Source: a virus | IMG/VR virus record: IMGVR_UViG_3300035698_010668 | Coordinates: 1-34,553 of that record | DNA: 34,553 nt | Strand: one strand, 5' to 3' | Shown: positions 127 to 33,341 of the stretch, piece after piece | Layout: each line of letters opens with the position of its first letter | Position numbering within the stretch: position 1 is the stretch's first letter | Translations under genes and position numbers: made by a program | The notes under the pieces: generated by a model | Database searches by the model: none | Told to the model about the DNA's origin: nothing | The model's input: the letters and a program-made list of their open reading frames with translations, nothing else

Positions 127-919
127 AATCTGCCTGATCCTGAGCTGCTACGGCGAGGACCGCTGGTGCATCCGGCGATGTCTGGAGTCGTTTTACGAGC
201 ACACCTCGATGCCCGTCGCGGTAATTAGCGACGACGGCACGCCGGACATCGACGTGGACGAGTGGACCGCCGTCACGAGCGGGATTCCCAACTGCCACCC
301 TAGCCGGTTTACCACCAACGGGGGTTTGACACGTGGCTGGAATCATGGGTTAAGGGCGGCCAGGGCACTCCACGTGGAGTACGCCGTGTGCGGAAACTCG
401 GATACAATCTTTGCACCTGGCTGGGAATCTGGTATGCTGGACGCGCTGCGGGACCACACACTGGTGGGACCGCTGACGAACTGCCCGGGATGGGGCAGCG
501 ATCTGCAACAGGTTAAGCACCTTCTGCCCGGCTACGTGGCCTCCGACAGCGCCGAGGCCATCGAGTGTGTTGCGCATGCACTCCGTGGTCGACCGGCCAC
601 CGAACTTCCTCCTCCGCGCGTGCAGGCGCAGAGGTCGGGCGTTGTAATGAGCGTGCCGGCGATGCTCAACGGGTTCACGCTGATGGCCCGCACGGAAGAC
701 TGGTGGGGAGGCGCACTGGATAATGAAAACGTGTTCAACCCGCAGATGAAAATGGCCCACAACGAACTCGAACTGCAGCTCCGCTGGGCGGCGGCGCGGA
801 AGAAGAGTGCCGTGGCTAACGCGAGCTTCGTGTTCCACTGCCGTGCCGTGTCACGCGGCCAACAATACTTGACCGAGGGGGCGTTCCGGCCCGTGGAGGA
901 CAGCCTGTGTGTGGAATGA
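119..919 (+). CDS. GT-A fold (family 2-like) glycosyltransferase
   Basis: 266 aa. The N-terminus (PKICLILSCYGEDRWCIRRC) is the first beta strand and helix of a Rossmann-like GT-A domain. SDDG at residues 37-40 fits the nucleotide-sugar-binding acidic motif, GGLTRGWNHGL (68-78) is the usual GxxxArNxG-type helix, and NSD at 93-95 stands where the metal-binding DxD lies. A later NELELQLRW helix matches the ED-type acceptor region. Such enzymes move a sugar from an NDP-sugar to an acceptor; in phages the acceptor may be DNA, a virion protein or a host surface glycan, which the sequence does not tell. It sits just ahead of the capsid genes and overlaps its downstream neighbour. A second GT-A gene lies at 4812-5573. 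Confidence 0.75.
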   Translation: MPKICLILSCYGEDRWCIRRCLESFYEHTSMPVAVISDDGTPDIDVDEWTAVTSGIPNCHPSRFTTNGGLTRGWNHGLRAARALHVEYAVCGNSDTIFAPGWESGMLDALRDHTLVGPLTNCPGWGSDLQQVKHLLPGYVASDSAEAIECVAHALRGRPATELPPPRVQAQRSGVVMSVPAMLNGFTLMARTEDWWGGALDNENVFNPQMKMAHNELELQLRWAAARKKSAVANASFVFHCRAVSRGQQYLTEGAFRPVEDSLCVE

Positions 920-1422
920 TGTCCGACATCGTGATCGTGGATGGGGAGCGATGGGGGTTCAGTTTTTTCGGCCCTCGTTCCGACGAGTTCAGCCAGCAAC
1001 TGAGAGAGAGACTTCCCAACAAAGAGACCGCGCCGTGGGGGGAAACGGCACTCGCCACGGGAATGACGATGCCGTCCTTGTGCTGCAAGCTGCGGCCGCT
1101 GTGTGTGTACCGCGTTGACGACGGCAGGCTGAAGGTGGTTCTGGAAGACGGCGATCTCAGCGTGGACGTAACGGGGACGTTTTACGTCTTTCGGTACAGA
1201 AGCGGCGAAGCCCCAGTATTCTGTAGCATACACCTCCATCCAGGCGACGCGAGAGTGCTTGCGTTGGACGTTCGTGACGGCGATGTGACAGGGAAGCGGG
1301 AATACCTCCCAGAAGGCGAGTTCCCAATGTCCGAAGCCGCGAAGCAAGACCTGGAACTCGCGATTCCAAAAGAAGACGAAAAGCCAATCCGCCTGCGCCA
1401 GCAGGAAGAGACCTCTGTATAA
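907..1422 (+). CDS. Hypothetical phage protein (171 aa)
   Basis: No family recognised. The GTG at 907 is chosen because GGAGGA at 895-900 lies six bases upstream. The ATG at 916 would give an ATGA overlap with the glycosyltransferase stop but sits about 15 bases from that site. The protein looks like an all-beta soluble domain: an opening strand around IVIVDGERWGFSFF, a middle with RLKVVLEDGDLSVDVTGT, then VLALDVRDGDVTGKREYLP. The C-terminus is charged and rich in Glu, Lys and Arg (KEDEKPIRLRQQEE). No signal peptide or membrane segment. Its place between a glycosyltransferase and the scaffold gene suggests a virion or assembly role, which is inference only. Confidence 0.6.
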   Translation: MCGMMSDIVIVDGERWGFSFFGPRSDEFSQQLRERLPNKETAPWGETALATGMTMPSLCCKLRPLCVYRVDDGRLKVVLEDGDLSVDVTGTFYVFRYRSGEAPVFCSIHLHPGDARVLALDVRDGDVTGKREYLPEGEFPMSEAAKQDLELAIPKEDEKPIRLRQQEETSV

Positions 1423-1459
1423 CGAGACCCTCCGCGCACCTCTGCATTGGGGATGCGCC

Positions 1460-2536
1460 ATGCCGCAAGACGAAGACGACATTCAACTGGAAGACCTACT
1501 GAAGAAGGAGGAGCCGGCTGAAAAACCGGACGCCGAGGAAGATGCCGAAGAGGCGTCCGAAGAAGAGCCGGCCGTGGAGGAGCCCGAAGGGGAGGCCTCC
1601 GAAGAAGAGGCGGACGAGGAAGAGGCCGTCGACGGGGCCGACGACGCTGCACCGGAGGGGGAACCCTCCGGGGAACAGGCCCAGGAGGCCCGCGATCTGA
1701 TCGAGTGGGCCGCCAAGCTGGGGCACGAGGGGGTCGCCGGCCGCTACAAGAACGATGAGGCGATGATCCTCGGTCTGTTGGAAACGGCCAAGAAGATCGG
1801 GGTCCGCGACCAAGACGCCGAGTTGGGGCGGATGGCCCGCGCACGGCCCGATGTGATCGAGTTCCTGCAGGGCAAGCAGCCCCAGCAGCAGGCGCCTCCG
1901 CCGCCCAAGCAAGAGACCCCGACCACGGCGGCCCAGGTAGAGGCGTGGCAGGCCGCGGTGGCCGCCAATCCGCAGAACCCGCCCACGGAAGCGGTGGCAG
2001 GTCTTCAAAAGGTCTCCCGGGACGCGGTGGGGTTCTACCTGCAGATGCAGGATCCCAATTTCCGCTCCCAGATGCTCCAGCCCGTGCTCCAGGAGCAGCA
2101 GCAGGCGCTCCAGCAGCAGTGGCAGCAGACGGCCACCCAGCAGGCCGCCCAACAGCAGGAGAACGCCCAACTTCGCGATCTCCAGGAACAATACAAGGCA
2201 GACCTGTTCGTGAACGGCGATCCGGCCACGCAGCAGTTCACCCCCGCCGGAGTCCGCGCGGACGAACTGTTTCGCGAGGAGCAGTCCAAGGGGATGCCTA
2301 AGTTGGAGGCGGCGCGGATTGCACTGCTCCGCCTTGAGTCCGAGCAGTACGGCCAGCTCCGCGCGCAGCGGACTCCCAAACCAGCCCGCCCCGGCGCCAA
2401 GCGGAAGCCCAACGTGGCCAGTCCGGCGGCCCCCGACGGTGCCGTCGACATGGACAAGATGATCGACGGTGCCGACAGTGTCGGCGAATTGCTGTGCCGC
2501 GCAGCGGGGATCGACCCCAAGAGACTCCATGAGTGA
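1460..2536 (+). CDS. Putative capsid scaffolding protein
   Basis: 358 aa. The first ~75 residues are almost purely Glu/Asp/Ala/Pro (repeats of EEPAEE type). The centre (about 140-265) is Gln-rich and helical, with long Q/A/L stretches that suggest coiled coil, and the C-terminal third is basic (RTPKPARPGAKRKPN) before a final helix around DGADSVGELLCRAAGID. An acidic N-terminus, helical middle and basic C-terminus directly upstream of the major capsid gene is the usual make-up of tailed-phage scaffolds, which bind capsid subunits and leave during maturation. No protease domain is visible. The assignment rests on position and composition, not on a sequence family. Other Gln-rich virion proteins of this phage are at 18981-22713. 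Confidence 0.65.
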   Translation: MPQDEDDIQLEDLLKKEEPAEKPDAEEDAEEASEEEPAVEEPEGEASEEEADEEEAVDGADDAAPEGEPSGEQAQEARDLIEWAAKLGHEGVAGRYKNDEAMILGLLETAKKIGVRDQDAELGRMARARPDVIEFLQGKQPQQQAPPPPKQETPTTAAQVEAWQAAVAANPQNPPTEAVAGLQKVSRDAVGFYLQMQDPNFRSQMLQPVLQEQQQALQQQWQQTATQQAAQQQENAQLRDLQEQYKADLFVNGDPATQQFTPAGVRADELFREEQSKGMPKLEAARIALLRLESEQYGQLRAQRTPKPARPGAKRKPNVASPAAPDGAVDMDKMIDGADSVGELLCRAAGIDPKRLHE

Positions 2537-2597
2537 CCAAGAGACCAAGGGACTTCGTGCCGGCCATTTTTGCGGAGGGGTGGTTGGCGCGGATGGA

Positions 2598-2639
2598 GGA
2601 GGAGCCGGATTCCCGCCCGTAGCGGCCCGGCTCCCCTCC
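2598..2639 (+). terminator. GC-rich hairpin between scaffold and capsid genes
   Basis: The arms GGAGGAGCCGG (2598-2608) and CCGGCTCCCCTCC (2627-2639) pair with a one-base bulge around an 18-nt loop. A run of C and three T follows instead of a clear T tract. It may be a weak terminator, a processing site or a block that separates scaffold and capsid translation. The 192-base gap holds nothing else clear: an ORF coupled by ATGA at both ends (2529-2732) runs through it but has an unconvincing composition. Confidence 0.4.
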
Positions 2640-2714
2640 CCCTTTACAATACGTGACGAAAGGATCCCCCCGCATCTGCAACTCCGCGACCCTCCATTAC
2701 TGAAAGCGTTAATC

Positions 2715-2720
2715 AGGAGG
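2715..2720 (+). promoter_or_regulatory. Strong ribosome binding site of the capsid gene
   Basis: AGGAGG ends eight bases before the ATG at 2729. It is one of the best Shine-Dalgarno matches in the + operon, as expected for the most abundant virion protein, and it fixes the start codon. Confidence 0.8.
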
Positions 2721-2728
2721 ACTCGCAA

Positions 2729-3844
2729 ATGAGTACCGAACATATTGCGGCATGGGCTCGCATCGACGCCGTGGCGCTGTCCAAGTGGCTCACCAAGAAG
2801 GTGATTACCCCGGTCGCCTACAACAACCCCGTGTTTGCCATGCTGAGGAAGCGTGGCCGGATGAAGTACAACATCGGCGGCGAGGAGGTCGAATGGCTCA
2901 CCCAATTCCGGCGTTACACTCCGGAATACGGCGGCGACATGGAGGCCACCTCGTTCCCGCGGACCAACGTCCACAAGAAGTGCAAGCTCACGCACCGCAC
3001 GATGAAGCTCGGGCAGGCGTGGAGCAAGTTCGAGAAGCTCGCCACGAAGGGCAAGGACGTGGCGCTGATTAAGTGGCTGGACCAGATCCTGCCGCTGATG
3101 ACCAAGAGCATGATGGAGGAGCTGGCCCTGCAGATCTACTCCAACGGCCACGCCGCCGGGGCCAAGTGCCTGCACGGCACGGAGAGTTGGTTCGGGACCA
3201 GCGGCGAGCAGATCGCCTACAGCGCGTGCGACACGCCGGACGATACCTACGCCGGTCTTTCCACCGCCCTGGGCAACTACGGCGGGTCCTGGACAGCGGC
3301 GGGGACGGGCGATTTCGACGGCTGGCCCAACGGGCAGGCTGCCAACATGAGCGGCGATTGGGAGTACCACTTCTTCACGCCGCTGAGCGTGTCCTACAAG
3401 TACGCCGGATTCAACGGCACGGCGGCGACGTGGTTCTACAACTGGCGCGAAGCGATCAACTACGCCCAGACGTACCAGATGCAGTTGCGCTCCAAGAAGA
3501 TCGACACGGTGACGATGACCTCGCAGATGATGCAGGACGTCAAGCGCTCGCTGGCCGGTCTGGAGACCTACGAGTTGACGCAGAAGTCGGACCTCACCGA
3601 CCTCGGCTTCACCACCGTCAAGGTCGACGGCACGGAGTTGGTCAACGCCTACGGGCACCCGGCCAACAAGGCGATCGGATGGAACTGGGATGCGATGGAA
3701 TTCTGGTCGATGCAACCCGACCTGTTCGCCGTCGACCGGGACGAAGACATCAGCCGCGACACGTTCATGATTAAGGAGGATTTCTGGGGGAACATGCGTA
3801 CGGAATCCCCCGCGGACCAGGTCGAGTTCACGGACGCCGCCTGA
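2729..3844 (+). CDS. Major capsid protein
   Basis: 371 aa. Position directly after the scaffold-like gene, the strong ribosome site and the length all fit a HK97-fold major capsid protein. The N-terminal helical part (VALSKWLTKKVITPVAYNNP) leads to a region with strand-rich Gly/Trp/Tyr segments. The middle has PDDTYAGLSTALGNYGG, which resembles the conserved 'GLxxALG' turn near the head of the P domain in many phage capsid proteins. A late segment (TSQMMQDVKRSLAGLETYEL) fits the long A-domain helix, and the C-terminus ends in receptor-like strands around MIKEDFWGNMRTESP. The exact family cannot be named without a search. The expected role is to form the icosahedral shell with the portal at one vertex. 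Confidence 0.8.
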   Translation: MSTEHIAAWARIDAVALSKWLTKKVITPVAYNNPVFAMLRKRGRMKYNIGGEEVEWLTQFRRYTPEYGGDMEATSFPRTNVHKKCKLTHRTMKLGQAWSKFEKLATKGKDVALIKWLDQILPLMTKSMMEELALQIYSNGHAAGAKCLHGTESWFGTSGEQIAYSACDTPDDTYAGLSTALGNYGGSWTAAGTGDFDGWPNGQAANMSGDWEYHFFTPLSVSYKYAGFNGTAATWFYNWREAINYAQTYQMQLRSKKIDTVTMTSQMMQDVKRSLAGLETYELTQKSDLTDLGFTTVKVDGTELVNAYGHPANKAIGWNWDAMEFWSMQPDLFAVDRDEDISRDTFMIKEDFWGNMRTESPADQVEFTDAA

Positions 3845-3892
3845 TCCTGACTTGCGGAGCGTTTTCTGACACAAACACAAAGGAGTTCTTTG

Positions 3893-4441
3893 ATGGATAA
3901 CGTATTACCGTTCCCGCGCGGCGAAACTTGGAGCGGGGCGACCGCGGACGTCTCCGACACGATTCCGCTGGGCCTTGAGGGCGCGATCTTCGATGCCACG
4001 GACACCGAACACGGCACGTCCGTGCCGATCAAGCTGCGGGTCGTCAAGAACGACTCGGGCGGCGACCTCACCGCGGCCCGCCAGTTGATGGGCTGGAGCA
4101 CGACCTCGGACACCGACCTCGGCCGTCGCTCGGACGGCTACACGGGAGCCCAGGGGGAGCGCTGCAAGCCGCTGGACGACGCCTACGCGGTTGGTTTCAC
4201 GATCCCCGAGGACGACCTGTTCTACTGCCTTGAATCCGGCTACTGCGACGTGAATGGTGACGGCACGGCGGTGGATCTCACCGTCGGCGACGAGGTCTGC
4301 ACGCAGAACGACGGGACGATGGACGGGACCCCCGCGACCACGGAAGACTACGTCTTCGGGACCGTGGCCGAGACGACGACCGCCGAATCGACCGCCACGC
4401 TGGTGTTGGTCGAGGAGGGGATCGGACGCGAGCACCACTAA
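3893..4441 (+). CDS. Putative head decoration/cement protein
   Basis: 182 aa. The ATG at 3893 is preceded by AGGAG (3881-3885) at a seven-base spacing. The sequence is strand-rich, acidic and rich in Thr, Gly and Asp, with few helices. The opening (ETWSGATADVSDTIPLGLEGAIFDATD) and the VGDEVCTQNDG segment look like the beta-barrel proteins that cover phage capsids. It follows the capsid gene, the usual place for a capsid cement gene, and a terminator-like hairpin closes the unit just after its stop, so capsid and this protein may form a high-expression block. The family is not certain; a minor capsid or head fibre protein is the alternative. Confidence 0.55.
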   Translation: MDNVLPFPRGETWSGATADVSDTIPLGLEGAIFDATDTEHGTSVPIKLRVVKNDSGGDLTAARQLMGWSTTSDTDLGRRSDGYTGAQGERCKPLDDAYAVGFTIPEDDLFYCLESGYCDVNGDGTAVDLTVGDEVCTQNDGTMDGTPATTEDYVFGTVAETTTAESTATLVLVEEGIGREHH

Positions 4442-4455
4442 CGAACGCCACCTTC

Positions 4456-4490
4456 GCTCCGGGCGCCAGACGCCAAAAGGCGCCCGGAGC
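4456..4490 (+). terminator. Rho-independent terminator-like hairpin after the capsid block
   Basis: A perfect 12-bp stem, GCTCCGGGCGCC (4456-4467) and GGCGCCCGGAGC (4479-4490), has an 11-nt loop and is followed by ACTTTGT. The U-tract is short, so termination is probably partial and lets some transcripts continue into the next genes. It lies in the gap between the decoration-like gene and the next ORF. Confidence 0.7.
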
Positions 4491-4527
4491 ACTTTGTACT
4501 CCGCCGATCCCTTCGCAAGGAATTTGC

Positions 4528-4815
4528 ATGATTGATTCAGAATACCTAGACGCATGGAGGAAATCGCGGCGCAAGGCGTGCCGTAAGAAGCTCGGCGGCG
4601 ATGACTGGGAGACCCAGTTGTTGATAGCAACCCAGATATTCAATGAGCCCTTCGACGCCACGGGGCACAAGTTTTACGGCTGGCTGGAAAACGAGTGGTT
4701 GACCGATGGGTGGCACGCCAGCGACCCGCTCAAGGACGTGTGGGATCAAGCCGCCTTTGACGAGGAGTGGGACAACCGCCGCTCCAACAATCCCCCCGCA
4801 AGGATCTCCGCATGA
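4528..4815 (+). CDS. Hypothetical protein (95 aa)
   Basis: No family recognised. AAGGA sits upstream of the ATG at 4528. The protein is highly charged and Trp-rich (WRKSRRKACRKK near the start; YGWLENEWLTDGWHASDPLKDVWDQ in the middle), without membrane segments. The stop overlaps the next gene's start by ATGA (4812-4815), so the two are probably co-translated. It begins right after a terminator-like hairpin, so its expression may depend on read-through. Confidence 0.6.
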   Translation: MIDSEYLDAWRKSRRKACRKKLGGDDWETQLLIATQIFNEPFDATGHKFYGWLENEWLTDGWHASDPLKDVWDQAAFDEEWDNRRSNNPPARISA

Positions 4816-5573
4816 GCTATTCACTATTTATAGCCCGCCCGTGTGGCTGGCAATTGGAAAGCCCCAAGACGGGCACGTGGCTGTTCCTGCTCGGAATGAC
4901 GCTGGGGAAGATCGCTTGCGCCGAGCAGATCACCTCCATCGGGTGCCTGGAGTTCAGCAACTCGCGAATCGGGATGAGCCGCAACTTCTTCGTCCAGCAG
5001 GCCCGCCAACACGGGGCCACGCACCTGCTGATGGTCGACCCGGACATGTGGCCGGACAGCAACGTGGAGCAATCCGGCCAGCGGTTCTTCGAGAGCGCCT
5101 GGGAGTTTTCCAAGATGCACCCGGGCTGCGTGATTGCCGCGCCCTACACGGGCAAGCGACCGGACGGGCTGGTCCACGTGTTTGGGCTGGAGGCGGACGG
5201 CAAGATGGTCCGCATCGACCGCGAGACGGCCGCCAAGACGGGCGGTTGGCTGCAGGTCGCGGGGGCCGGCACGGGGCTGATGCTCGTGGACATGACCGTG
5301 TTCGACAAGCTGGAGGAGAAGGGTTTCGTCCCGTTCTTCCAGGACCGCTACAGGGACAAGTACGAGGCGGAACTGGACCTTTCCCAAGACATCGCGTTCT
5401 GTGCCAACTGCGGCCGCGCGCAGGTCCCGATCTACGTCAACATGGAGACGCCGGCCACGCACCAGCAGTTCGGCTTCGAGGAGATGCCGGGTTGGGATGG
5501 GCCCCGTCCGCCGCTGGACGGCAAAATCCGCACACTGAGGATGGGAGCCAGCGATGCAGGATTACCTATTTGA
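4812..5573 (+). CDS. GT-A-like glycosyltransferase
   Basis: 253 aa from the ATG at 4812 (coupled ATGA, AAGGA upstream). SRNFFVQQARQHGATHLLMVDPDMWP is a textbook GT-A core: a helix with conserved Arg-Asn, a strand, then DPD (76-78) in the place of the DxD metal/NDP-sugar motif. GAGTGLMLVD (151-160) matches the small-residue strand that follows the acceptor loop, and DLSQDIAFC fits the acidic 'EDxxxC' helix. The opening SYSLFIARPCGWQ gives no signal peptide. It is distinct from the glycosyltransferase at 119-919. Target and sugar are unknown; virion glycosylation is possible from the context. It overlaps the next gene by 20 bases. Confidence 0.7.
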   Translation: MSYSLFIARPCGWQLESPKTGTWLFLLGMTLGKIACAEQITSIGCLEFSNSRIGMSRNFFVQQARQHGATHLLMVDPDMWPDSNVEQSGQRFFESAWEFSKMHPGCVIAAPYTGKRPDGLVHVFGLEADGKMVRIDRETAAKTGGWLQVAGAGTGLMLVDMTVFDKLEEKGFVPFFQDRYRDKYEAELDLSQDIAFCANCGRAQVPIYVNMETPATHQQFGFEEMPGWDGPRPPLDGKIRTLRMGASDAGLPI

Positions 5574-5955
5574 CGCAAACTGCGAGGAGGTGCCCCAGTG
5601 GCTGATGCAGGTGTTCACGGATCGCAACCAGTTCGGGACGTGGGCCGGACACGCTCAGAACCTCCGCGAGGAACTCTGGGAACTCAGCCGCACGACCGGC
5701 GGGGCGCTGGTCGACGTGGAGGCGGCGATGCTGGCACTAGACCGGGCGAAGATCCTGGTGCTCAAGCAGATGCCGTTCGCGATGTGCGGTTGCCCGAGCG
5801 GCTGCAAGCGGTGCAACTACCGGGGTTGGACCACCGACCCCGAGCTGGCGCCGTTCTCGTTGGACGACTCGCCGAGTGGGCCAGCTTCGAGACCCGAGGA
5901 GGGGAGATCCGCGGAAGCGCCCGAATCGAGGTCGACGGACTCAGTGTGTGGGTGA
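5554..5955 (+). CDS. Hypothetical Cys-motif protein, C-terminal part doubtful
   Basis: 133 aa as read. The first ~105 residues look like a real helical protein (VPQWLMQVFTDRNQFGTW, then EELWELSRTTGGALVDVEAA) followed by a Cys cluster, CGCPSGCKRC, at about 78-87, which may bind zinc. From about residue 105 the translation becomes Ser/Pro/Arg-rich without structure, and over the same bases the -1 frame encodes a credible OB-fold. That suggests either a true stop at 5955 with an overlapping second gene, or a frameshift that joins the two. No function is recognised. Confidence 0.5.
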   Translation: MQDYLFDANCEEVPQWLMQVFTDRNQFGTWAGHAQNLREELWELSRTTGGALVDVEAAMLALDRAKILVLKQMPFAMCGCPSGCKRCNYRGWTTDPELAPFSLDDSPSGPASRPEEGRSAEAPESRSTDSVCG

Positions 5956-6152
5956 CGGCCCACGGCCGACAGGCGAGGAAGCTGGAGACGATCGAGAAGT
6001 CGGCAATGGTCCGCGTCGACGGCCGCTTGAAGGAGGCCGACTGGACCGGGGTGGGCGAGAAGCGGCACAAACGGTTGGTGGTGGAGGCCGAGGCGATCAA
6101 GGCGCTGGAGGGCCCCGAGCGGGATTTCAAGTACGTAGAGGACGTGCCATGA
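5826..6152 (+). CDS. Small OB-fold protein, SSB-like; start uncertain
   Basis: The frame encodes VLVGRLAEW, then SARIEVDGLSVWVTAHGRQA, then MVRVDGRLKEADW and RLVVEAEAI, which is the strand order of a single-stranded-DNA-binding OB-fold (GRL opening, VTAHG centre, VRVDGRL and VVEAEAI closing strands). There is no ATG ahead of the domain. The options in frame are TTG at 5826 (used here, 108 aa) or GTG at 5811, neither with a clear ribosome site, or a -1 frameshift from the 5554 gene. The typical acidic SSB tail is missing, although the end GPERDFKYVEDVP is mildly acidic. If real, it would coat ssDNA or act in repair or replication. Confidence 0.5.
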   Translation: MDHRPRAGAVLVGRLAEWASFETRGGEIRGSARIEVDGLSVWVTAHGRQARKLETIEKSAMVRVDGRLKEADWTGVGEKRHKRLVVEAEAIKALEGPERDFKYVEDVP

Positions 6153-6159
6153 ATCTACT
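6138..6159 (+). repeat. 22-bp direct repeat, copy 1
   Basis: This segment is repeated at 6378-6399 with one mismatch (C at 6147, G at 6387), exactly 240 bases apart. Each copy ends one gene (EDV then Pro or Ala) and starts ATGAATCTACT. Here the start leads only to a nine-codon ORF, which stops at 6178. Confidence 0.85.
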
Positions 6160-6170
6160 GGAGGGTAAGA

Positions 6171-6392
6171 ATGGGTAATCCCGCAAATCCGCACTGCCCC
6201 GCTTGTGGTCGGGTGTTGGCGTCGATCGGCCGACTCGACGTGGAGTGCTGCCGTTCGTGTCAGCTTGAGGAGGAAGATGGCGTGGCCGTTCCATCCACGG
6301 TGATGCTGGATGGGGAAGAGCTGGCCGTCTGCTGCACGGTCGCGACGGTGTACCGCAAGCACCGCAAGCTGGTGCCGGAGGACGTGGCATGA
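6171..6392 (+). CDS. Small zinc-ribbon protein
   Basis: 73 aa. GGAGGG at 6160-6165 lies five bases before the ATG. CPAC (about 9-12) and CRSC (about 28-31, preceded by another Cys) are two CxxC knuckles about 16 residues apart, a small zinc ribbon; two more Cys follow in AVCCTV. The C-terminus is basic (YRKHRKLVPEDVA). The gene lies exactly between the two copies of a 22-bp repeat, and its last codons lie in the second copy, so it looks as if it was gained by a duplication or recombination event. It may bind nucleic acid or protein; no specific role can be given. Confidence 0.65.
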   Translation: MGNPANPHCPACGRVLASIGRLDVECCRSCQLEEEDGVAVPSTVMLDGEELAVCCTVATVYRKHRKLVPEDVA

Positions 6393-6399
6393 ATCTACT
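6378..6399 (+). repeat. 22-bp direct repeat, copy 2
   Basis: The partner of 6138-6159. It spans the end of the zinc-ribbon ORF and the start of the DUF3307-like gene (MNLL...), which is the full-length version of the nine-codon MNLLEGKNG ORF after copy 1. Confidence 0.85.
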
Positions 6400-6721
6400 T
6401 ATGGGGCATCTCGTCGGCGACTATTTGCTGCAGAACGATTGGATGGCGCTAAACAAGAAGCGCTCCAGTTGGCATTGCGGAGTCCACTGCCTGCTTTACA
6501 CCTTGGCTATTGCCCTCTTTACAGGCTGGCCCGTCTTGCCGTTAGCGGTGGTGGCGACGACACACTTTGCGATAGACCGAACAGGTGTCGTTCTTGGCTG
6601 GATGAAACTCATTGGACAGTCGCGATTCAGCGAACCGCCCATGGGGCCGTGGTCCATTGTTGTGGTTGACAACACGATGCACTTGCTCGTGCTCTATATA
6701 ACCTCACTGGTGATCGCATGA
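6389..6721 (+). CDS. DUF3307-like integral membrane protein
   Basis: 110 aa. The signature of the DUF3307 family is visible: GHLVGDYLLQNDWMALNKK at the start (His, Asp and Gln in the membrane-edge motif), then a His/Cys helix, and ATTHFAIDR in the middle (usual form THFxID). Hydrophobic segments lie at about 33-58 and 90-110, so it is a small inner-membrane protein. The function of the family is unknown; phage members are often placed near morphogenesis or lysis genes. The start overlaps the upstream stop by ATGA and the stop overlaps the next ATG by ATGA. Confidence 0.75.
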   Translation: MNLLMGHLVGDYLLQNDWMALNKKRSSWHCGVHCLLYTLAIALFTGWPVLPLAVVATTHFAIDRTGVVLGWMKLIGQSRFSEPPMGPWSIVVVDNTMHLLVLYITSLVIA

Positions 6722-7014
6722 AAGCCGACGACGCAATTCGAGAACTACGCGAGGCCCAGGAGGGGCAGGTCGACGTTCACGACCTGCTGCAGCACATCCT
6801 CATCGAGTTCGGCGGCAACGAGGGGATGGCCAAGATCCTCAAGAAGTGTTTCGACGCCGCTCCCGAGGGCTCCAACGTCCAGGCCAAGATTGCCAGCGAC
6901 ATTATGAAGCTGGTTCACTCCCTGACCACGGGCGAGGTGGACGACGGACTCTCCGAAGAGGACTTGGCGGCAGAGGCGGCGGCGCTGATGCGAGGTAACG
7001 ATGAAGGCGAGTGA
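6718..7014 (+). CDS. Putative terminase small subunit (by position)
   Basis: 98 aa, acidic and mostly helical: DDAIRELREAQEGQVDVHDLLQHIL, then GMAKILKKCFDAAPEGSNVQAK, then a Glu/Ala-rich end. It lies directly before the large terminase and overlaps it by 14 bases, the usual place of a DNA-recognising small terminase. No helix-turn-helix is obvious, so the label rests on position and size. A small structural or regulatory protein is the alternative. Confidence 0.45.
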   Translation: MKADDAIRELREAQEGQVDVHDLLQHILIEFGGNEGMAKILKKCFDAAPEGSNVQAKIASDIMKLVHSLTTGEVDDGLSEEDLAAEAAALMRGNDEGE

Positions 7015-26000: not shown

Positions 26001-26815
26001 TGTGGGTCAACACGGTCCACTTCGACTACTCCAAGGTCTCGCCGTTCGGTCGCAAGGTTCGCAAGGTCGTGCCGTTCTACGGATTCCTCTCAAACAACCT
26101 GCCTTACCAGATCAAGAGCCTCTTCGACCGCCCCGGGGGTCGCCACGCGCAGACGCTGCGGACGATCGCCGCCTTGCACCGCGAGGGTGGGACCTACCTG
26201 CCGGCCTGGATGCGCGAGAAGGTGGGGCTGCCAATGTCCACCGACGAGGAGGGCCGCACGCAGGTGATCCGCCAGTTGGGGCTCTCGATCGAGGACCTGG
26301 GCAATTACCAGTTCGAGGGCGGACACCCGGTCACGCGGCGTTCGGGAGAGAGGCTGCTGGCCCAGACGCATCCGCTGCTCTCGGCGGGCTACAAGCTGCT
26401 GTCCCAGCGCGACCCGTTCACCGGCCGGGACCTGAACTCGATGTACGGGCTGACCGGCAACACCACGGCCGACACCGCGATTCAGACGCTGCCCTACGCG
26501 CGGGCCCTGAGTGAGAGCCGCGTGGTCACCGACATTGCCTCGGGGCGGAAGTCCGGCCCGGTGGCGATCGGCGACTTCCTGACGGGGGTCAAGGTCGGGA
26601 CCTACGACCTGGAGGCGTGGCGGGCCATCGACCAGCAGCGGTTGCTCAGGCGGCTGATGGAAGAGAGCCCCGAGATCGGCACGCTGGAGGTGCCCTACGC
26701 GCGGGACAAGGAGGCGATCAGTCCCGATGCGGCTCGGAACCTGGAGATGTATCGGGCTCTCCAGGCAGCACTGTCGAAAGGTAGGGAAAAGCGCAAGGCG
26801 GGAGCCGCAAAGTGA
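23075..26815 (+). CDS. Large internal-virion/polyvalent-type protein (1246 aa)
   Basis: The N-terminus (~40-150) carries LDKPGAAARGLISG ... LGLEVFTDPLILLTGPG, a module shared with the ART-like virion protein. It continues in long amphipathic helices; around residue 808 it has WPAFHIRNLVDSAIFRNW, a motif I associate with internal virion and large polyvalent proteins, and around residue 998 KVVPFYGFLSNNLPYQIKSL. No signal peptide, no cysteine protease motif seen. Likely packed in the head and ejected with the DNA. The start is uncertain: the ATG at 23075 has no ribosome site upstream (its leader holds CCTCCTT, the antisense of the minus gene's site), and the ATG at 23159 would align better with the paralogue. 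Confidence 0.65.
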   Translation: MALAPLPPLPSLTHITTPRKRRHSTPAQMPNQDEESSLLGSVMGGLEFAALTLDKPGAAARGLISGAMGGPWGGGLLNLVPFSDTVGITRPDERVWGRDLVEQMGGRKNKPGILNTFTDPTEFALDTAGLGLEVFTDPLILLTGPGKSLTAKGIKASKRVAPRLEKVAGTLEAALGGVSHKLGTTPIAKADEIGQGLRGVMGLKVPFAKNAFATFGAGSETAAKYYEKLMYAPGVRHWRSLWAPSLQGISHPEGARVADRQWHKLHQVSGAMEDMIPTFQESQKRLMGEFETLSKHLRTTANKAGADEFDALVRHLGETFPMIEGKMSLTAADVKGMLVLPPGIDIEKQAGRFSAELATYIDQFHQVKDTLWSRAQDLGIKGEWLDDAFASHVPRGLDKQMKGALDGIRSRMMLNTRNPNAIRRAGSLTDMPGATLGINRGAMHPFHGALSSAPRSKNVTKPTMEGVKQELFAGVWAEVPGTDKFGRILKTSPKSATLQQMSHDGKYSVEAFNLADLRPMDAVPPSAMEAMPSMPVPQQQTLKELKAWYRAKYGATKGVSLQEIKRQNYFDEITLPAIKENNAAAAISTAVKPDGTKAIQHIPEVLTPDLADQLDVTIRHLNRLPDNVRQKGLFTKSYVEDLFGYMHHAAENIANAEVMHGFLGQASRNMVKDRVPLKDSELSLGDSWMRTVGTDGKPALNHEGLRTFMTRKGEKGLPEIPKMPREKDLLAAGVPQEEIAKEMGLARDAIESAKGVIQQRAANYAVDRKVTGALNTYVQAMDPKMEGFLAETFREWTAVWKASATTIWPAFHIRNLVDSAIFRNWASAGSSFPMFGKNGLVQANREFWRFARGKASLEMREEIEAIGLLSNSRFWDSVGEVAGEAVEGAGRVPTLAGFKVSKDAMKEPGALNIFNILGGPKKVPTLRHPIKGAKYATQNVSAKLGQQAFETIEAAARVPAYIALRRNGFSPSQAKLWVNTVHFDYSKVSPFGRKVRKVVPFYGFLSNNLPYQIKSLFDRPGGRHAQTLRTIAALHREGGTYLPAWMREKVGLPMSTDEEGRTQVIRQLGLSIEDLGNYQFEGGHPVTRRSGERLLAQTHPLLSAGYKLLSQRDPFTGRDLNSMYGLTGNTTADTAIQTLPYARALSESRVVTDIASGRKSGPVAIGDFLTGVKVGTYDLEAWRAIDQQRLLRRLMEESPEIGTLEVPYARDKEAISPDAARNLEMYRALQAALSKGREKRKAGAAK

Positions 26816-27455
26816 GGCAGCGGCGGATGTGCCGCCGGGCTTCCATCACTTGCCGCTTGGACATTCGATTCCCCTCGCAGTCGATGACCCTGGCGAATTC
26901 GTTGTGGGCCGTTCGGAGCCGGTCCCCCTCGTAGAGCCATTGCTGGCGGCGGAGCAATTTGTTCTGCAGCCGGTAGCGGGACATCCCGATCCCACGCCTC
27001 TTGCGCGACAGCCCGAGCCGATTCTTCTGCTTGCCCATCACGATCTGCAGGCACCACATCCGCGCGTCGGTGGCGGCCTTCGTCGGCTCCGGGGCGTCGA
27101 TCACCGCGCCGCGGGCTCGGAGCGAGGTAAACGCATGGCGGCACTCGGACACCGTGCGACCCAGCAGGATCCCCGATTGCATCACGAGGATGTCGCCCGG
27201 TTGGAGGTGTTCGATCAGCAGTCGCGTGTGGTAGCGGATGCCGAACTGCTCGGGGCAGCCCGGCTTGTAGCCGTCGCGAATCACATGCAAAAACACGCCG
27301 CGACCGAGACTCTCAAGCTCCCGGCCGCGGCGTTCTGCGTACTGGACCTGTTGGAAGATCCCGTCCTCGTACTGCCGCGTGCGGGCATAGCCCACGATCA
27401 CGGGGTTGGTGCGTGGGACGGAGAGGATCTCAGCGTCGGAGAGGTTACGATCCAT
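26718..27455 (-). CDS. Serine-recombinase-like protein lacking catalytic serine
   Basis: 245 aa, overlapping the end of the + 1246-aa gene by 98 bases. Residues 18-122 match the resolvase N-terminal fold: VIVGYARTRQYEDG (usually YARVS), then VFLHVIRDGYK, LLIEHLQPGDILVMQSG and LLGRTVSECRHAFTSLRARG. The catalytic Ser position (27) is Arg, and the usual DR before LGR is missing, although Arg25 and Arg100 remain. It is therefore probably not a working recombinase but may bind DNA through its basic C-terminus (SRKRRGIGMSRYRLQNKLLRR). It comes three bases after the 31-aa gene, so the two are likely co-expressed. Confidence 0.6.
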   Translation of the reverse strand: MDRNLSDAEILSVPRTNPVIVGYARTRQYEDGIFQQVQYAERRGRELESLGRGVFLHVIRDGYKPGCPEQFGIRYHTRLLIEHLQPGDILVMQSGILLGRTVSECRHAFTSLRARGAVIDAPEPTKAATDARMWCLQIVMGKQKNRLGLSRKRRGIGMSRYRLQNKLLRRQQWLYEGDRLRTAHNEFARVIDCEGNRMSKRQVMEARRHIRRCLTLRLPPCAFPYLSTVLPGEPDTSPGSEPHRD

Positions 27456-27554: not shown

Positions 27555-27567
27555 GGGCTACTCCTGT

Positions 27568-27648
27568 AAAAAAGCCGACCGGCCCACGCGAGGGGTAGGA
27601 GACCCTGGCGCGGCACCGAGAGGGTGGACTCCCCAGCCACCGGTCGGC
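27568..27648 (-). terminator. Complex hairpin with U6 tail (terminator or structured RNA)
   Basis: In the minus RNA a perfect 9-bp stem (27640-27648 with 27574-27582) closes a 57-nt interior that can fold into two further hairpins: GTGG/CCAC, and CGCG plus GGGT with ACCC plus CGCG, giving a three-way junction. Six U follow at 27573-27568. It lies between the Cys4 gene and the 31-aa gene. A tRNA was considered and rejected because no T-loop is present. Confidence 0.6.
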
Positions 27649-27661
27649 GTGTACGGGGAAG

Positions 27662-27820: not shown

Positions 27821-27853
27821 CGCTTCATCCTCCGGGGTTAGTGGTCCAGGACT

Positions 27854-27876
27854 CCGCGCCGCTCACGACGGCGCGG
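27854..27876 (-). other. Intergenic hairpin
   Basis: CCGCGCCG (27854-27861) pairs with CGGCGCGG (27869-27876), 8 bp, 7-nt loop, in the gap between the 58-aa and 52-aa Cys4 genes. No U tract, so it is not a standard terminator. Confidence 0.6.
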
Positions 27877-27885
27877 GCTCGCGGA

Positions 27886-28062
27886 TCACTTCCGCTTCTT
27901 GGGGCTCTTCGGGCCCTCAAGCAACAGGACGGACGGGGCTTCGCCCGGATCGGCGCCGGCGGCGCACATGTCGTCCTGCAATTCTCCTGCCGCAGTGTTG
28001 ACGATCCACTGCTTGACCCAGTCGACCAGCGGGCGAAGAGTCAGTTTCGGAAGGCTTATCAT
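27886..28062 (-). CDS. Small hypothetical protein (58 aa)
   Basis: The ATG at 28062 has GAGGAGGAG upstream. The protein starts MISLPKLTLRPLVDWVKQW, which is an amphipathic helix, continues with an Ala/Asp/Gly part (ELQDDMCAAGADPGEAP) and ends basic (PKSPKKRK). No membrane span long enough to be certain. It follows the covarying leader hairpin at 28071-28121. No family recognised. Confidence 0.55.
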   Translation of the reverse strand: MISLPKLTLRPLVDWVKQWIVNTAAGELQDDMCAAGADPGEAPSVLLLEGPKSPKKRK

Positions 28063-28070
28063 ACGATCTC

Positions 28071-28121
28071 CTCCTCGGGGTTGTCGCGGCCTCTACCCGG
28101 CCGCTGGGGTTGTACGCTTGG
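28071..28121 (-). repeat. 51-nt leader repeat, copy 1
   Basis: Identical to 28291-28341 at 45 of 51 positions. It holds the stem GCGGCC/GGCCGC (28086-28091 with 28099-28104), ACAACCCC on both sides when read on the minus strand, and ends at the GAGGAG ribosome site. The differing stem bases are compensated on the opposite arm. Confidence 0.85.
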
Positions 28122-28122
28122 G

Positions 28123-28281
28123 TCAGGCGTCGAATGCCTCAGACGCATCTGCGCATAAGTCGGGCCGGTGTCGCCGCAGATCAGATTCGACGATTTCCCA
28201 GCGATCTCGCACGGGATCGTATAGCCCGCAGTCCACAGGCAGGCCCATATCTCGCCGGAGTGCGTCGGATATTAAGATCAT
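28123..28281 (-). CDS. Small hypothetical protein (52 aa)
   Basis: ATG at 28281 with GAGGAGG upstream. Begins MILISDALRRDMGLPVDCGL and continues YDPVRDRWEIVESDLRRHR, then DLCADASEAFDA. Predominantly helical, no membrane segment. It lies between the two 51-nt repeats. No family recognised. Confidence 0.55.
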   Translation of the reverse strand: MILISDALRRDMGLPVDCGLYDPVRDRWEIVESDLRRHRPDLCADASEAFDA

Positions 28282-28290
28282 CGCTCTCGC

Positions 28291-28341
28291 CTCCTCGGGG
28301 TTGTCGCCGGCTTCACCCGCCGGCTGGGGTTGTACGCTTGG
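28291..28341 (-). repeat. 51-nt leader repeat, copy 2
   Basis: Stem GCCGGC/GCCGGC (28306-28311 with 28319-28324) with a seven-nt loop. Compared with copy 1, two base pairs are swapped from G-C to C-G on both arms at once, so the fold is kept. It lies ahead of the 52-aa gene at 28123. Confidence 0.85.
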
Positions 28342-28357
28342 AACACCGCGGGCCTCG

Positions 28358-28377
28358 GCGCCCCGTTGCCGGGGCGC
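28358..28377 (-). other. Intergenic hairpin
   Basis: GCGCCCC (28358-28364) pairs with GGGGCGC (28371-28377), 7 bp with a 6-nt loop. It follows a 15-bp element at 28340-28354 that is repeated at 28961-28975, also beside a hairpin. Confidence 0.6.
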
Positions 28378-28392
28378 TTGGGCTCGGGGTGG

Positions 28393-28960: not shown

Positions 28961-28996
28961 GGAACACCGCGGGCCATGCCCCCGCCGCAACGGGGG
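28961..28996 (-). other. Leader element and hairpin ahead of 28938 gene
   Basis: It comprises the 15-bp repeat copy (28961-28975) and a hairpin CCCCCG (28979-28984) with CGGGGG (28991-28996). The same 15 bases occur at 28340-28354 next to another hairpin. Confidence 0.6.
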
Positions 28997-29011
28997 TTAG
29001 GTGCAAGGTGG

Positions 29012-30457: not shown

Positions 30458-30501
30458 TGTCTCAATCTCCTACATCGGGGGTAACGTAACAGAAACCAAG
30501 G

Positions 30502-30523
30502 GGCGGGGATGCCAAGCCCCGCC
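30502..30523 (-). other. Intergenic hairpin
   Basis: GGCGGGG (30502-30508) pairs with CCCCGCC (30517-30523), 8-nt loop, between the 89-aa gene and the DUF3560 gene, upstream of its leader. Confidence 0.6.
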
Positions 30524-30536
30524 GGCTGGGTTGCTG

Positions 30537-30806
30537 TTATTCGGTCGATCCGTCGGGGTTGCCAACGGCGAGAATCCGACCGTCAAACGCCAGAAACTCG
30601 TCCTCGTCAGAGTATCGGAGGGGGCGTAGTGAGTAAGACAAGTCTCGCCCTTGATTGTCGACAATCACCACCGCGGGGTTATCGTCAGCGCAATAGGGGC
30701 CGCCCGAGTACGGGAAACCGTACCAGCCGTTTCCCCGATAAAACCAGACTGTGAAGGATTGCAGAAAGCGGAAGGGTGTGTCGGTTTTCAAGTCTCTAAG
30801 GTTCAT
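30537..30806 (-). CDS. Small hypothetical protein (89 aa)
   Basis: ATG at 30806 with AGGAG upstream in the CAGTAGGAGA leader. Sequence NLRDLKTDTPFRFLQSFTVW, then FYRGNGWYGFPYSGGPYC, VVIVDNQGRDLSYSLRPLRY. Strand-rich, many aromatics, no signal peptide. Similar in layout to the next upstream gene (104 aa), perhaps same family type. No function recognised. Confidence 0.6.
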   Translation of the reverse strand: MNLRDLKTDTPFRFLQSFTVWFYRGNGWYGFPYSGGPYCADDNPAVVIVDNQGRDLSYSLRPLRYSDEDEFLAFDGRILAVGNPDGSTE

Positions 30807-30837
30807 CGGTTCATTCTCCTACTGGGGAAGTTAGCAA

Positions 30838-30874
30838 CCACGCTAGGCGCTTCGGGGTGAAGCGCCACGCGTGG
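30838..30874 (-). other. Intergenic hairpin with internal loop
   Basis: Outer stem CCACGC (30838-30843) with GCGTGG (30869-30874), inner stem GGCGCTTC (30846-30853) with GAAGCGCC (30859-30866), a TA/AC internal loop and a 5-nt top loop. One of the most stable-looking folds in the window. No U tract. Confidence 0.7.
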
Positions 30875-30877
30875 GGG

Positions 30878-31192: not shown

Positions 31193-31219
31193 CGATCGAT
31201 CTCCTACTGGGGAAGGGGG

Positions 31220-31414: not shown

Positions 31415-31460
31415 GGTCGTCTCTCCTACTGGGGTGTGGGTGTGTTTTCTCTCCACAGCT

Positions 31461-31488
31461 ATCCTAGCAGAAATGCAGAAATAGGCAA
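31461..31488 (-). promoter_or_regulatory. Sigma70-like promoter for the minus operon
   Basis: On the minus strand, TTGCCT (31488-31483) and TAGGAT (31466-31461) are separated by 16 bases, with TGC just before the -10 (extended -10 form). The predicted start lies about 40 bases ahead of the GTG at 31414. CTATTC motifs cluster just upstream (31501-31560), where a regulator could bind. The surrounding ~160 bases are visibly AT-richer than the window. Confidence 0.55.
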
Positions 31489-31657
31489 TAATCTGCGGTA
31501 GAATAGCGGCGGAATAGTGAAATAATCGGCCGACGCACCTAGCAGAGAACAGAACTATTCTGCGATTATTTTGGATTGTGAACTGGACACTTAACAAAAC
31601 GAAACCAAGGGGGGGTATAGGTCAAGGGCTACCCTGCCATTAGGTGGAATTCGCGTG

Positions 31658-31669
31658 AGGATGCATCCT
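31658..31669. promoter_or_regulatory. Perfect palindrome AGGATGCATCCT
   Basis: A 12-bp perfect palindrome whose half-site AGGAT recurs in the palindrome at 31725-31736; together they look like operators for a dimer. Confidence 0.5.
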
Positions 31670-31724
31670 AAGGGGGAGCAGGCTGTTGTGGGTTAGGAGT
31701 CAAGAAGGTGCATCGGATCGCGTT

Positions 31725-31736
31725 AGGATCGATCCT
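31725..31736. promoter_or_regulatory. Perfect palindrome AGGATCGATCCT
   Basis: Same half-site as 31658-31669 with the two central bases swapped; the centres are 67 bases apart. Confidence 0.5.
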
Positions 31737-31831
31737 GGGGGACTGTTTTCAGAAACAGATTGACGCAATGGGTGGAGTCTGTATATTGGAGGTAATCGGG
31801 CAAAACCGAATACGTTCCCTTGTGGAACACG

Positions 31832-31876
31832 AGAAGGCCAGTAAGAGCCCTGCCCGGTTGCGCTGGCCTTCTTTTA
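31832..31876 (+). terminator. Strong rho-independent terminator (+)
   Basis: AGAAGGCCAG (31832-31841) pairs with CTGGCCTTCT (31863-31872), 10 bp, with a 21-nt loop and a TTTATT tail completing a T-rich tract. In the + direction this is a good terminator, yet no + gene precedes it, so a non-coding + transcript of about 200 bases is possible. Confidence 0.65.
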
Positions 31877-31930
31877 TTGGCGCACGCGGGCCGTCGTACA
31901 GCTAAGAATGCAATTAGCCCGCAACCGGTA

Positions 31931-32037
31931 GCAAGCGGAAACGGTACGCCACCTACGGCAAGAACGGATCCGCGGCCCAATGACCCGCAACCCGGTGACA
32001 GGGTCCACCTAGGTTTGCAAGCGGATCTTGCAAGCGG
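31931..32037 (+). repeat. Iteron-like GCAAGCGG repeats
   Basis: GCAAGCGG is found at 31931-31938, 32017-32024 and 32030-32037. The last two are part of TTGCAAGCGG copies exactly 13 bases apart, as in tandem iterons. Confidence 0.55.
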
Positions 32038-32439
32038 CCACGCTACTGGAACTCTCCTCTATTGGTCATCCGGTTCTTTGCGCGCCAACTCTACGCGCTA
32101 CCAGCTTCAGCCGATGCACGCCATGTACTCTGAGGGTTTGGCCTACATCCCGTAGAGGGGCATGGTTTGGCCGGCTTGTCGATCATGGATCGGCAGCGAT
32201 GAGTCACAAGCCAGCTTGTCGGCAACGAGTGGAAGGCTACTGAGGCCCTATTCCAGGGCTATTCTGGCACCGATCTGGCACTATTCCGGCACCACGTCAC
32301 GGGTGCGATCGGCAGGACAAGAGAAAGCAGAATGGGGTCGAGGGGGAAGAGGAACGGCTGTTACTCTATGTTAGAGCACCTTTTACCCCGTTCAGGGGGG
32401 GAACCACGGGCCAGCAGGAAACCCGGTTCAATTCTCGCC

Positions 32440-32485
32440 GGCATGGCCCCTCTAGGGGGCATGATACGAATGGCACGGCCATGCC
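32440..32485. repeat. Inverted repeat with nested hairpin
   Basis: GGCATGGCC (32440-32448) and GGCCATGCC (32477-32485) pair perfectly; GCCCC and GGGGC at 32446-32460 form a nested hairpin. Confidence 0.55.
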
Positions 32486-32688
32486 ATTTGCCACCGTGGC
32501 GGGTCTACACCTAAGAGGTACGGGGCGTGCTCTATCCACGCGGGATAGTGCATGCGTTGCCCCAACCCATTGCAGCATAAGGGGTTACGCCAACGGAAGG
32601 AAGCCGCCGGTAGTGGTGAGCGAATCGAGGATGCGAGGGGATGGCAGTCTAGGCAAGGGGGTGGTGGATCGTGCGAATGCATGGTCTG

Positions 32689-32754
32689 CCCCGTCCCCCT
32701 ACCCCGCCGGGCCCCCAACGCGGTCCCCGTCCCCTATATGGTACCTACTCCCCC
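32689..32754 (-). other. Tract with seven G runs (G-quadruplex potential)
   Basis: On the minus strand, seven runs of four or five G fall within 66 bases (C runs at 32689, 32695, 32702, 32712, 32725, 32731 and 32750 on +). It is just downstream of the stop of the 111-aa gene. Confidence 0.6.
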
Positions 32755-32796
32755 TACTTCGCAGAACATCCATACCCTAACCCATTTGAATGCCCA

Positions 32797-33132: not shown

Positions 33133-33341
33133 CTCGTCCGCCTGTCCTCCAGCCGGAAGAACCCGGTGAAGTCGTCACCGAGCCCCACCGCATGGTAGTG
33201 CCACGGTTCTGGTGAATGGCTCATCCCGTCATCCTTTCTGCTAAACATGCCCGCAGTATTCAGAGGTGAGCCTCCCCAGTTCGTAATGGGGTCGTACTCG
33301 TTCCCCACCGCCTTCACTGGCCACTTGCTTGGGTCGTACAT
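33129..33341 (-). CDS. Small protein with internal MSHSPEPW start (70 aa)
   Basis: ATG at 33341 with GGAGG upstream gives 70 aa: MYDPSKWPVKAVGNEYDPIT and, from residue 40, MSHSPEPWHYHAVG. The MSHSPEPW element is the start of the neighbouring family, and an AAAGGA lies eight bases before its ATG at 33224, so a 31-aa product is also possible. The family's later CVN segment is missing, so this looks truncated and joined to another N-terminus. Confidence 0.5.
   Translation of the reverse strand: MYDPSKWPVKAVGNEYDPITNWGGSPLNTAGMFSRKDDGMSHSPEPWHYHAVGLGDDFTGFFRLEDRRTR

Follow-up and report, generated by a model that had tools for sequence, protein, structure and literature searches.

The leftward small-gene operon and its surroundings

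The window, by which the whole stretch of DNA under analysis is meant, comprises all 34,553 bases of an IMG/VR virus record that is classed as linear. Among its rightward genes, matches were found to a major head protein, a terminase large subunit and a portal protein, and a leftward operon of small genes spans from approximately 31.4 kb down to 27.6 kb. The operon encodes DUF3560 and DUF7717 proteins, and several of its ORFs are without a family match. Among these are a 52-aa ORF (28123-28281, minus strand), which sits between two near-identical leaders of 51 nt, and a 58-aa ORF (27886-28062, minus strand), which lies behind the first of the leaders and is, by eye, unlike the 52-aa ORF. No DNA-level match to the window was found by blastn among sequenced phages, the relatives of the window terminase are remote only, and no bacterial genome encoding a relative of the window's 181-aa protein was found in the GTDB genome set.

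Several other features were observed around the operon. A 245-aa ORF (26718-27455, minus strand) displayed a weak, below-threshold match to a resolvase N-terminal domain (E 0.046), and the small-gene run closes with a likely terminator, a long hairpin (GCCGACCGG...CCGGTCGGC) with TTTTTT behind it (27560-27650, minus strand). Upstream of the operon lies approximately 1.3 kb of apparently non-coding DNA (31420-32760), within which short palindromes occur, for instance GCCCCTCTAGGGG/CCCGTAGAGGGGC at 32149-32161 and 32446-32458; this region could contain the promoter of the leftward operon or a replication origin. Further along, several small paralogous genes share the N-terminus M(S/T)HSP(E/K)PW, which is encoded by minus-strand repeats at 33200, 33682 and 33996, and a similar start, M(N/S)HTPGPW, is present in two of the related phage loci (L003 and L011).

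Two 51-nt leaders with paired changes in the stem

The two leaders, both on the minus strand, end in the ribosome sites of the 58-aa ORF (copy 1, 28071-28121) and the 52-aa ORF (copy 2, 28291-28341). They align without gaps and with 6 differences in 51 nt (alignment positions 20, 22, 28, 29, 32 and 34), and as the genes behind them are unrelated, the leader was probably copied independently of its gene. The hairpin of copy 1, GCGGCC-GGGUAGA-GGCCGC (28086-28104, minus strand), starts 18 nt past the upstream stop codon, with its end 23 nt ahead of the start codon, and that of copy 2, GCCGGC-GGGUGAA-GCCGGC (28306-28324, minus strand), has two pairs swapped in comparison. These swaps turn pair 3 of the 6-bp stem from G-C into C-G and pair 5 from C-G into G-C, with both arms changed, and account for four of the six differences; the other two lie in the loop, which reads GGGUAGA in copy 1 and GGGUGAA in copy 2.

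Each hairpin is flanked by ACAACCCC on either side. The upstream copies are found at 28106-28113 (copy 1) and 28326-28333 (copy 2) and the downstream copies at 28077-28084 (copy 1) and 28297-28304 (copy 2), all on the minus strand, with the downstream ones forming a single-stranded, C/A-rich spacer followed by GAGGAG. This ACAACCCC-N-ACAACCCC arrangement is present twice, against zero copies expected. The description in an earlier note on this DNA was accurate, including the coordinates and strand of the leaders, the two G-C/C-G swaps on both arms, the retained GGGU loop core, and the ACAACCCC flanks of which the downstream one abuts GAGGAG.

Both copies fold to -13.5 kcal/mol. Compared to shuffled sequences, the z values were -2.0 and -1.2 for the 37-nt core but only -0.5 and 0.0 for the full 51 nt, and as the energy of the 51-mer is thus near chance and that of the core modestly better, energy alone is no proof of the fold. 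The probability that six random substitutions would keep 6/6 pairs with at least two double changes was 1.3e-4 (approximately 1 in 8,000), a value computed post hoc, after the pair had been picked. The count of paired changes amounts to two double swaps in two copies, plus a second leader pair described below, and thus comes from few independent copies. Moreover, G-C/C-G swaps are, as far as the letters go, the same for an RNA and a DNA hairpin.

Strong hairpins in all larger gaps of the operon

Seven of the gaps that separate the small genes of the operon measure at least 60 nt, and every one of them carries a strong hairpin. The best perfect stems of these gaps summed to 55, compared to 40.7±3.1 in dinucleotide shuffles, and 0/1,000 shuffles reached this value. 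In four of the seven gaps, a shared bulged architecture is predicted, which opens at most a few nucleotides from the stop codon of the preceding gene with 4 bp, continues with a 1x1 pyrimidine mismatch, 2 bp and an internal loop, and closes with 7-9 bp and a loop of 4-8 nt; in two of the four cases the internal loop is divided by an extra 2-3 bp and a 3x3 loop. The architecture occurred in 0/7,000 gap shuffles and 0/260 coding windows, figures to be read with the descriptor having been written after the folds were seen and with two of its four members being related to each other. Applied to the window, the structure descriptor matched the four gaps and three minus-strand sites in the region of the rightward genes and gave zero matches on the plus strand, against a background of 0-4 matches per shuffled strand (mean about 1.5).

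The four stop-proximal hairpins are all located on the minus strand. The one at 28344-28391 (4 bp, Y.Y mismatch, 2 bp, internal loop, 3 bp, 3x3 loop, 8 bp) shares its gap with leader copy 2, and the one at 28965-29010 is its sequence relative, in which the inner stem has changed with all layers paired. The hairpin at 27845-27885 has the same architecture in unrelated sequence, and that at 30489-30537 adopts it in the fold of the whole gap, with a competing register when folded alone. The gap at 30807-30877 (minus strand) holds another strong hairpin (z -5.3), which consists of 6 bp, a 2x2 loop and 8 bp. In other phages, matches to the stop-proximal architecture were scattered, occurred at a shuffle-like rate and look like chance, so that the architecture is, so far, specific to this genome.

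The related hairpins at 28344-28391 and 28965-29010, compared by eye and without an alignment program, both start with CCACC and end with GGCCCGCGGTGTT, and represent a second covarying pair. GCGCCCCG/CGGGGCGC forms the inner stem of one and CCCCCGU/GCGGGGG that of the other, with every layer still paired. Counted from the internal loop, three inner pairs are altered on both sides, one pair goes from C-G to U-G, and a C-G to U-G change is seen in the outer 2-bp helix as well. Because of these U-G pairs, an RNA structure is favoured for the second pair. That letters change while the fold is kept in duplicated copies suggests that the fold matters.

The earlier note had taken the covariation of the two 51-nt copies to point to selection for RNA shape. 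Conserved pairing, the part of this claim that held up, draws its backing more from the rest of the operon than from the 51-nt pair; covariation of two paralogous copies is in itself no proof of selection, since template switching can rewrite both arms at once (PMC8794818).

Searches for further copies of the 51-nt leader

With a covariance model of the 51-nt leader, no third copy was found in the window, and no credible copy was found in 20 relative loci and ten whole records. The matches in other records reached at most approximately 18 bits (the best in L013 and G010), compared to 87 bits for the two known copies, and were treated as chance. This covariance search had been suggested in the earlier note as a check, and by returning the two window copies and no relatives it neither refutes nor confirms the proposed selection on shape. 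Likewise, a specific DNA pattern of the leader gave no match in the IMG/VR viral contigs; a looser pattern gave two, both inside coding repeats, which were rejected. No blastn match of the operon or leader was obtained against phages, and a single match against plasmids was at chance level and was also rejected. When the terminase, the DUF3560 and DUF7717 proteins and the 181-aa protein were used as bait, no phage close enough for a leader alignment was retrieved. Finally, no match to the window at the curated gathering score was found among the 4227 Rfam models, where the matches at E up to 10 were all at chance level, and a ribozyme reading of the window hairpins was dropped as being without Rfam support. 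Within the data searched, the 51-nt leader appears private to this phage.

Possible roles and origins of the hairpins

Judged from its sequence, the 51-nt leader is a real, small, shape-conserving repeat within an operon-wide hairpin arrangement, and its role can be put forward as a proposal. The reading that we tentatively prefer, at a probability of about 0.45, is that several intercistronic RNA hairpins, which occur at nearly every junction of the operon, are kept as cistron boundaries, and that the two leaders are paralogous copies of one of them. The hairpins would form in the polycistronic mRNA, be kept for their shape, and protect or punctuate the transcript between genes. Each would separate the upstream coding region from the next initiation region, giving every gene an initiation region of its own, with the C/A-rich stretch and the ribosome site lying just outside, downstream of the hairpin. 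The leader may have been duplicated as a ready-made expression module before unrelated genes, after which the arms would have drifted yet remained complementary. Counting against this boundary role are the number of 51-nt copies (only two, in one genome, with no homologue in the collections searched), the near-chance energy of the 51-mer, and the four related loci (L013, L014, L015 and L017) that display no clear stem excess. Within the set of papers covered by a word search, no earlier report of intercistronic phage hairpins was found, which is weak evidence of absence. The small-gene runs of phages are long and their expression is mostly unstudied; a shape-conserved hairpin at each junction would, if true, amount to a simple punctuation rule for the mRNA and provide a handle for finding such operons.

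A different origin for the paired changes, which we consider somewhat unlikely, is purely mutational: after duplication of the leader and a change in one of its arms, the other arm was made to match by a template switch in replication, with no selection on the RNA. Hairpins and multibase compensatory changes are documented products of a single template-switch event (PMC8794818), and such an origin would fit the presence of only two copies, the clustering of the swaps, all of which are G-C/C-G, and the frequent duplication of leaders in these phages. It is harder to reconcile with the hairpins in 7/7 gaps exceeding the shuffle expectation, with four gaps sharing an architecture with one pyrimidine mismatch of which the operon's coding windows have none, and with the C-G to U-G change in the second pair, which is not expected from a template copy. 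Given one architecture on unrelated sequences, together with the U-G change, template switching is less likely to be the whole story, and the hairpin pairs provide a natural test case for distinguishing selection on RNA shape from template-switch mutation. The leaders could also be elements of the DNA, either as a palindromic operator or as a small palindrome that is mobile and, on insertion, duplicated its 8-bp target ACAACCCC. The position of ACAACCCC directly on both sides of the hairpin agrees with an insertion, as does the single AACCCC before the ribosome site of other leaders, which resembles an empty site; furthermore, the G-C/C-G swaps preserve the pairing of DNA too, and intergenic dyads are recurrent in related phages. 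Nevertheless, we regard a DNA-level element as unlikely. A protein operator would preserve the letters of its arms, which have changed here, and the identity of the two copies runs 8 nt past the upstream ACAACCCC (CCAAGCGT), which argues for one leader duplication rather than two insertions. In addition, no other copies were found in the window or the collections, and the stop-proximal hairpins use U-G pairs.

The earlier note had also suggested that the loop GGGU pairs with ACCC, forming a pseudoknot that hides or frees the ribosome site and thereby acts as a translation switch. The retention of GGGU and both ACCC tracts in the two copies, with the downstream tract abutting GAGGAG, is in line with such pairing, but four kept letters say little given six differences in 51 nt. 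The GGGU:ACCC helix of 4 bp is weak (-4.2 kcal/mol), and the first loop of the pseudoknot would have zero nucleotides, leaving nothing to link stem 1 to the GGGU strand. Moreover, the same C-rich tracts (CCCC/AACCC) precede the ribosome sites of leaders that lack these GGGU-loop hairpins (27838, 28950 and 30815), and the native hairpin left predicted access to the ribosome site unchanged or slightly reduced compared to a shuffled one (0.23 vs 0.28 in one copy, 0.16 vs 0.23 in the other). The pseudoknot is therefore not supported, and we hold a switch of this kind to be very improbable; as predicted access is not raised, the idea that the hairpin insulates the ribosome site likewise lacks computational support. 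Lower still is the probability that we would give to intrinsic terminators or attenuators between the genes. GC-rich hairpins do lie directly after stop codons, and one gap hairpin (30502-30523) fits a loose terminator pattern. However, both hairpins of the 51-nt leaders are followed by ACAACCCC rather than a T-run, terminator-like matches in the region were at chance level (8 vs 6.0±2.5) with none at the two leader hairpins, and a terminator-like structure with TTTTTT is present only at the end of the operon (about 27560-27650).

In a broader and distinctly unlikely scheme, genome-specific families of stop-proximal and leader hairpins would stand at almost all small-gene junctions, both in this lineage and in unrelated phages sharing accessory genes. 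A phage-encoded RNA-binding or processing factor would recognise their shape, made up of 4 bp, a pyrimidine mismatch, 2 bp, an internal loop and a long stem, rather than their sequence, and would thereby set how strongly the whole operon is expressed.

Comparison with described elements

Hairpins of the REP type and intercistronic stabiliser hairpins of bacterial operons are GC-rich, lie between cistrons and often directly follow stop codons. The gap hairpins of the window, being GC-rich, intercistronic and near stop codons, resemble them, although this is a likeness of description only.

In the arrangement of its parts, the extended start-associated sequence (ESAS) of cluster K mycobacteriophages is the closest described analogue of the 51-nt leaders. 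The ESAS consists of 17-bp imperfect inverted repeats with a spacer of mostly 4-13 bp and lies directly upstream of the SAS, a 13-bp sequence (GGGATAGGAGCCC) that overlaps the ribosome site (PMC3203893). Both the ESAS and the leaders have inverted repeats with a spacer between the arms, repeated in one genome just upstream of the ribosome sites of unrelated genes, and as with the ESAS the two leaders are found in one orientation before the start codons of different gene families (ORFs 27886-28062 and 28123-28281). In the ESAS, however, the arm sequence is conserved, whereas the arms of the leaders are 6 bp with a 7-nt loop and change their letters while remaining paired. The leaders are also without the SAS consensus and read ACAACCCCGAGGAGG before the start codon. 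With both the SAS consensus and the 17-bp arms missing, the window leaders fall outside the ESAS. Another type of repeated leader is found at the head of the operon, where three near-identical 16-nt start-associated sequences (30815-30830, 31200-31215 and 31422-31437; minus reading CTTCCCCAGTAGGAGA) cover the ribosome sites, resembling the idea of the SAS.

The compensatory changes ascribed to template switching (PMC8794818) resemble those of the leaders in that several bases of a short stem differ, pair by pair, from one related copy to the other. They differ in that template switching is a mutation mechanism rather than an element, and it explains neither the hairpins in all gaps nor the U-G change.

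Junction elements in related phages

A stem excess at gene junctions was also found in gene-level relatives, with z values of 4.6 in L003, 4.1 in L006 and 2.4 in L011; at the junctions of L016 the excess was by energy only (z -4.7), and no clear stem excess was found at those of L013, L014, L015 and L017. In L003, a 10-bp hairpin leader (GATCCCGAGGGGAAATTCGGGATC) occurs three times at junctions. The 98.5-kb record that holds L006 (G002) contains at least 27 intergenic copies of a TTAAAT-N16-CGAATAAC motif at fixed spacing, the arms of which pair better with their own partner than with swapped arms (0/10,000 permutations, 27 copies). Similar to the 51-nt leaders, this motif is repeated at gene junctions and has self-complementary arms of varying sequence; in contrast to them, it has strong conserved blocks at fixed spacing and a variable stem register, and it shares no sequence similarity with the 51-nt leader. 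No Rfam match for the motif was found in the L006 part of the record, and it may represent either a promoter combined with a hairpin or an RNA motif of a new kind. The loci in which the motif is seen, as TTAAAT-N16-CGAATAAC...AGAG, include L019-L023, for example L020 (2229-18361, minus strand). The elements of the relatives differ by sequence; they show junction hairpins to be common in operons of this kind, which does not imply a single family.

Two further observations were made among these loci. In L011, a hammerhead ribozyme is located at 6198-6250 (plus strand), between two phage genes and immediately ahead of the one that is homologous to the 181-aa gene of the window; its core (CUGACGAG...CGAAAC...GUC) is intact, and it scored 31.3 bits against RF00163 (gathering 34). 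In L005, a dyad (TAGGACATCTTGACCTATAGGTCATTCTGTCCTATATT) stands before genes in up to eight copies (905-7013), and it recurs in L004 at 5882 and 7067; by its appearance, this dyad looks like a promoter-operator.
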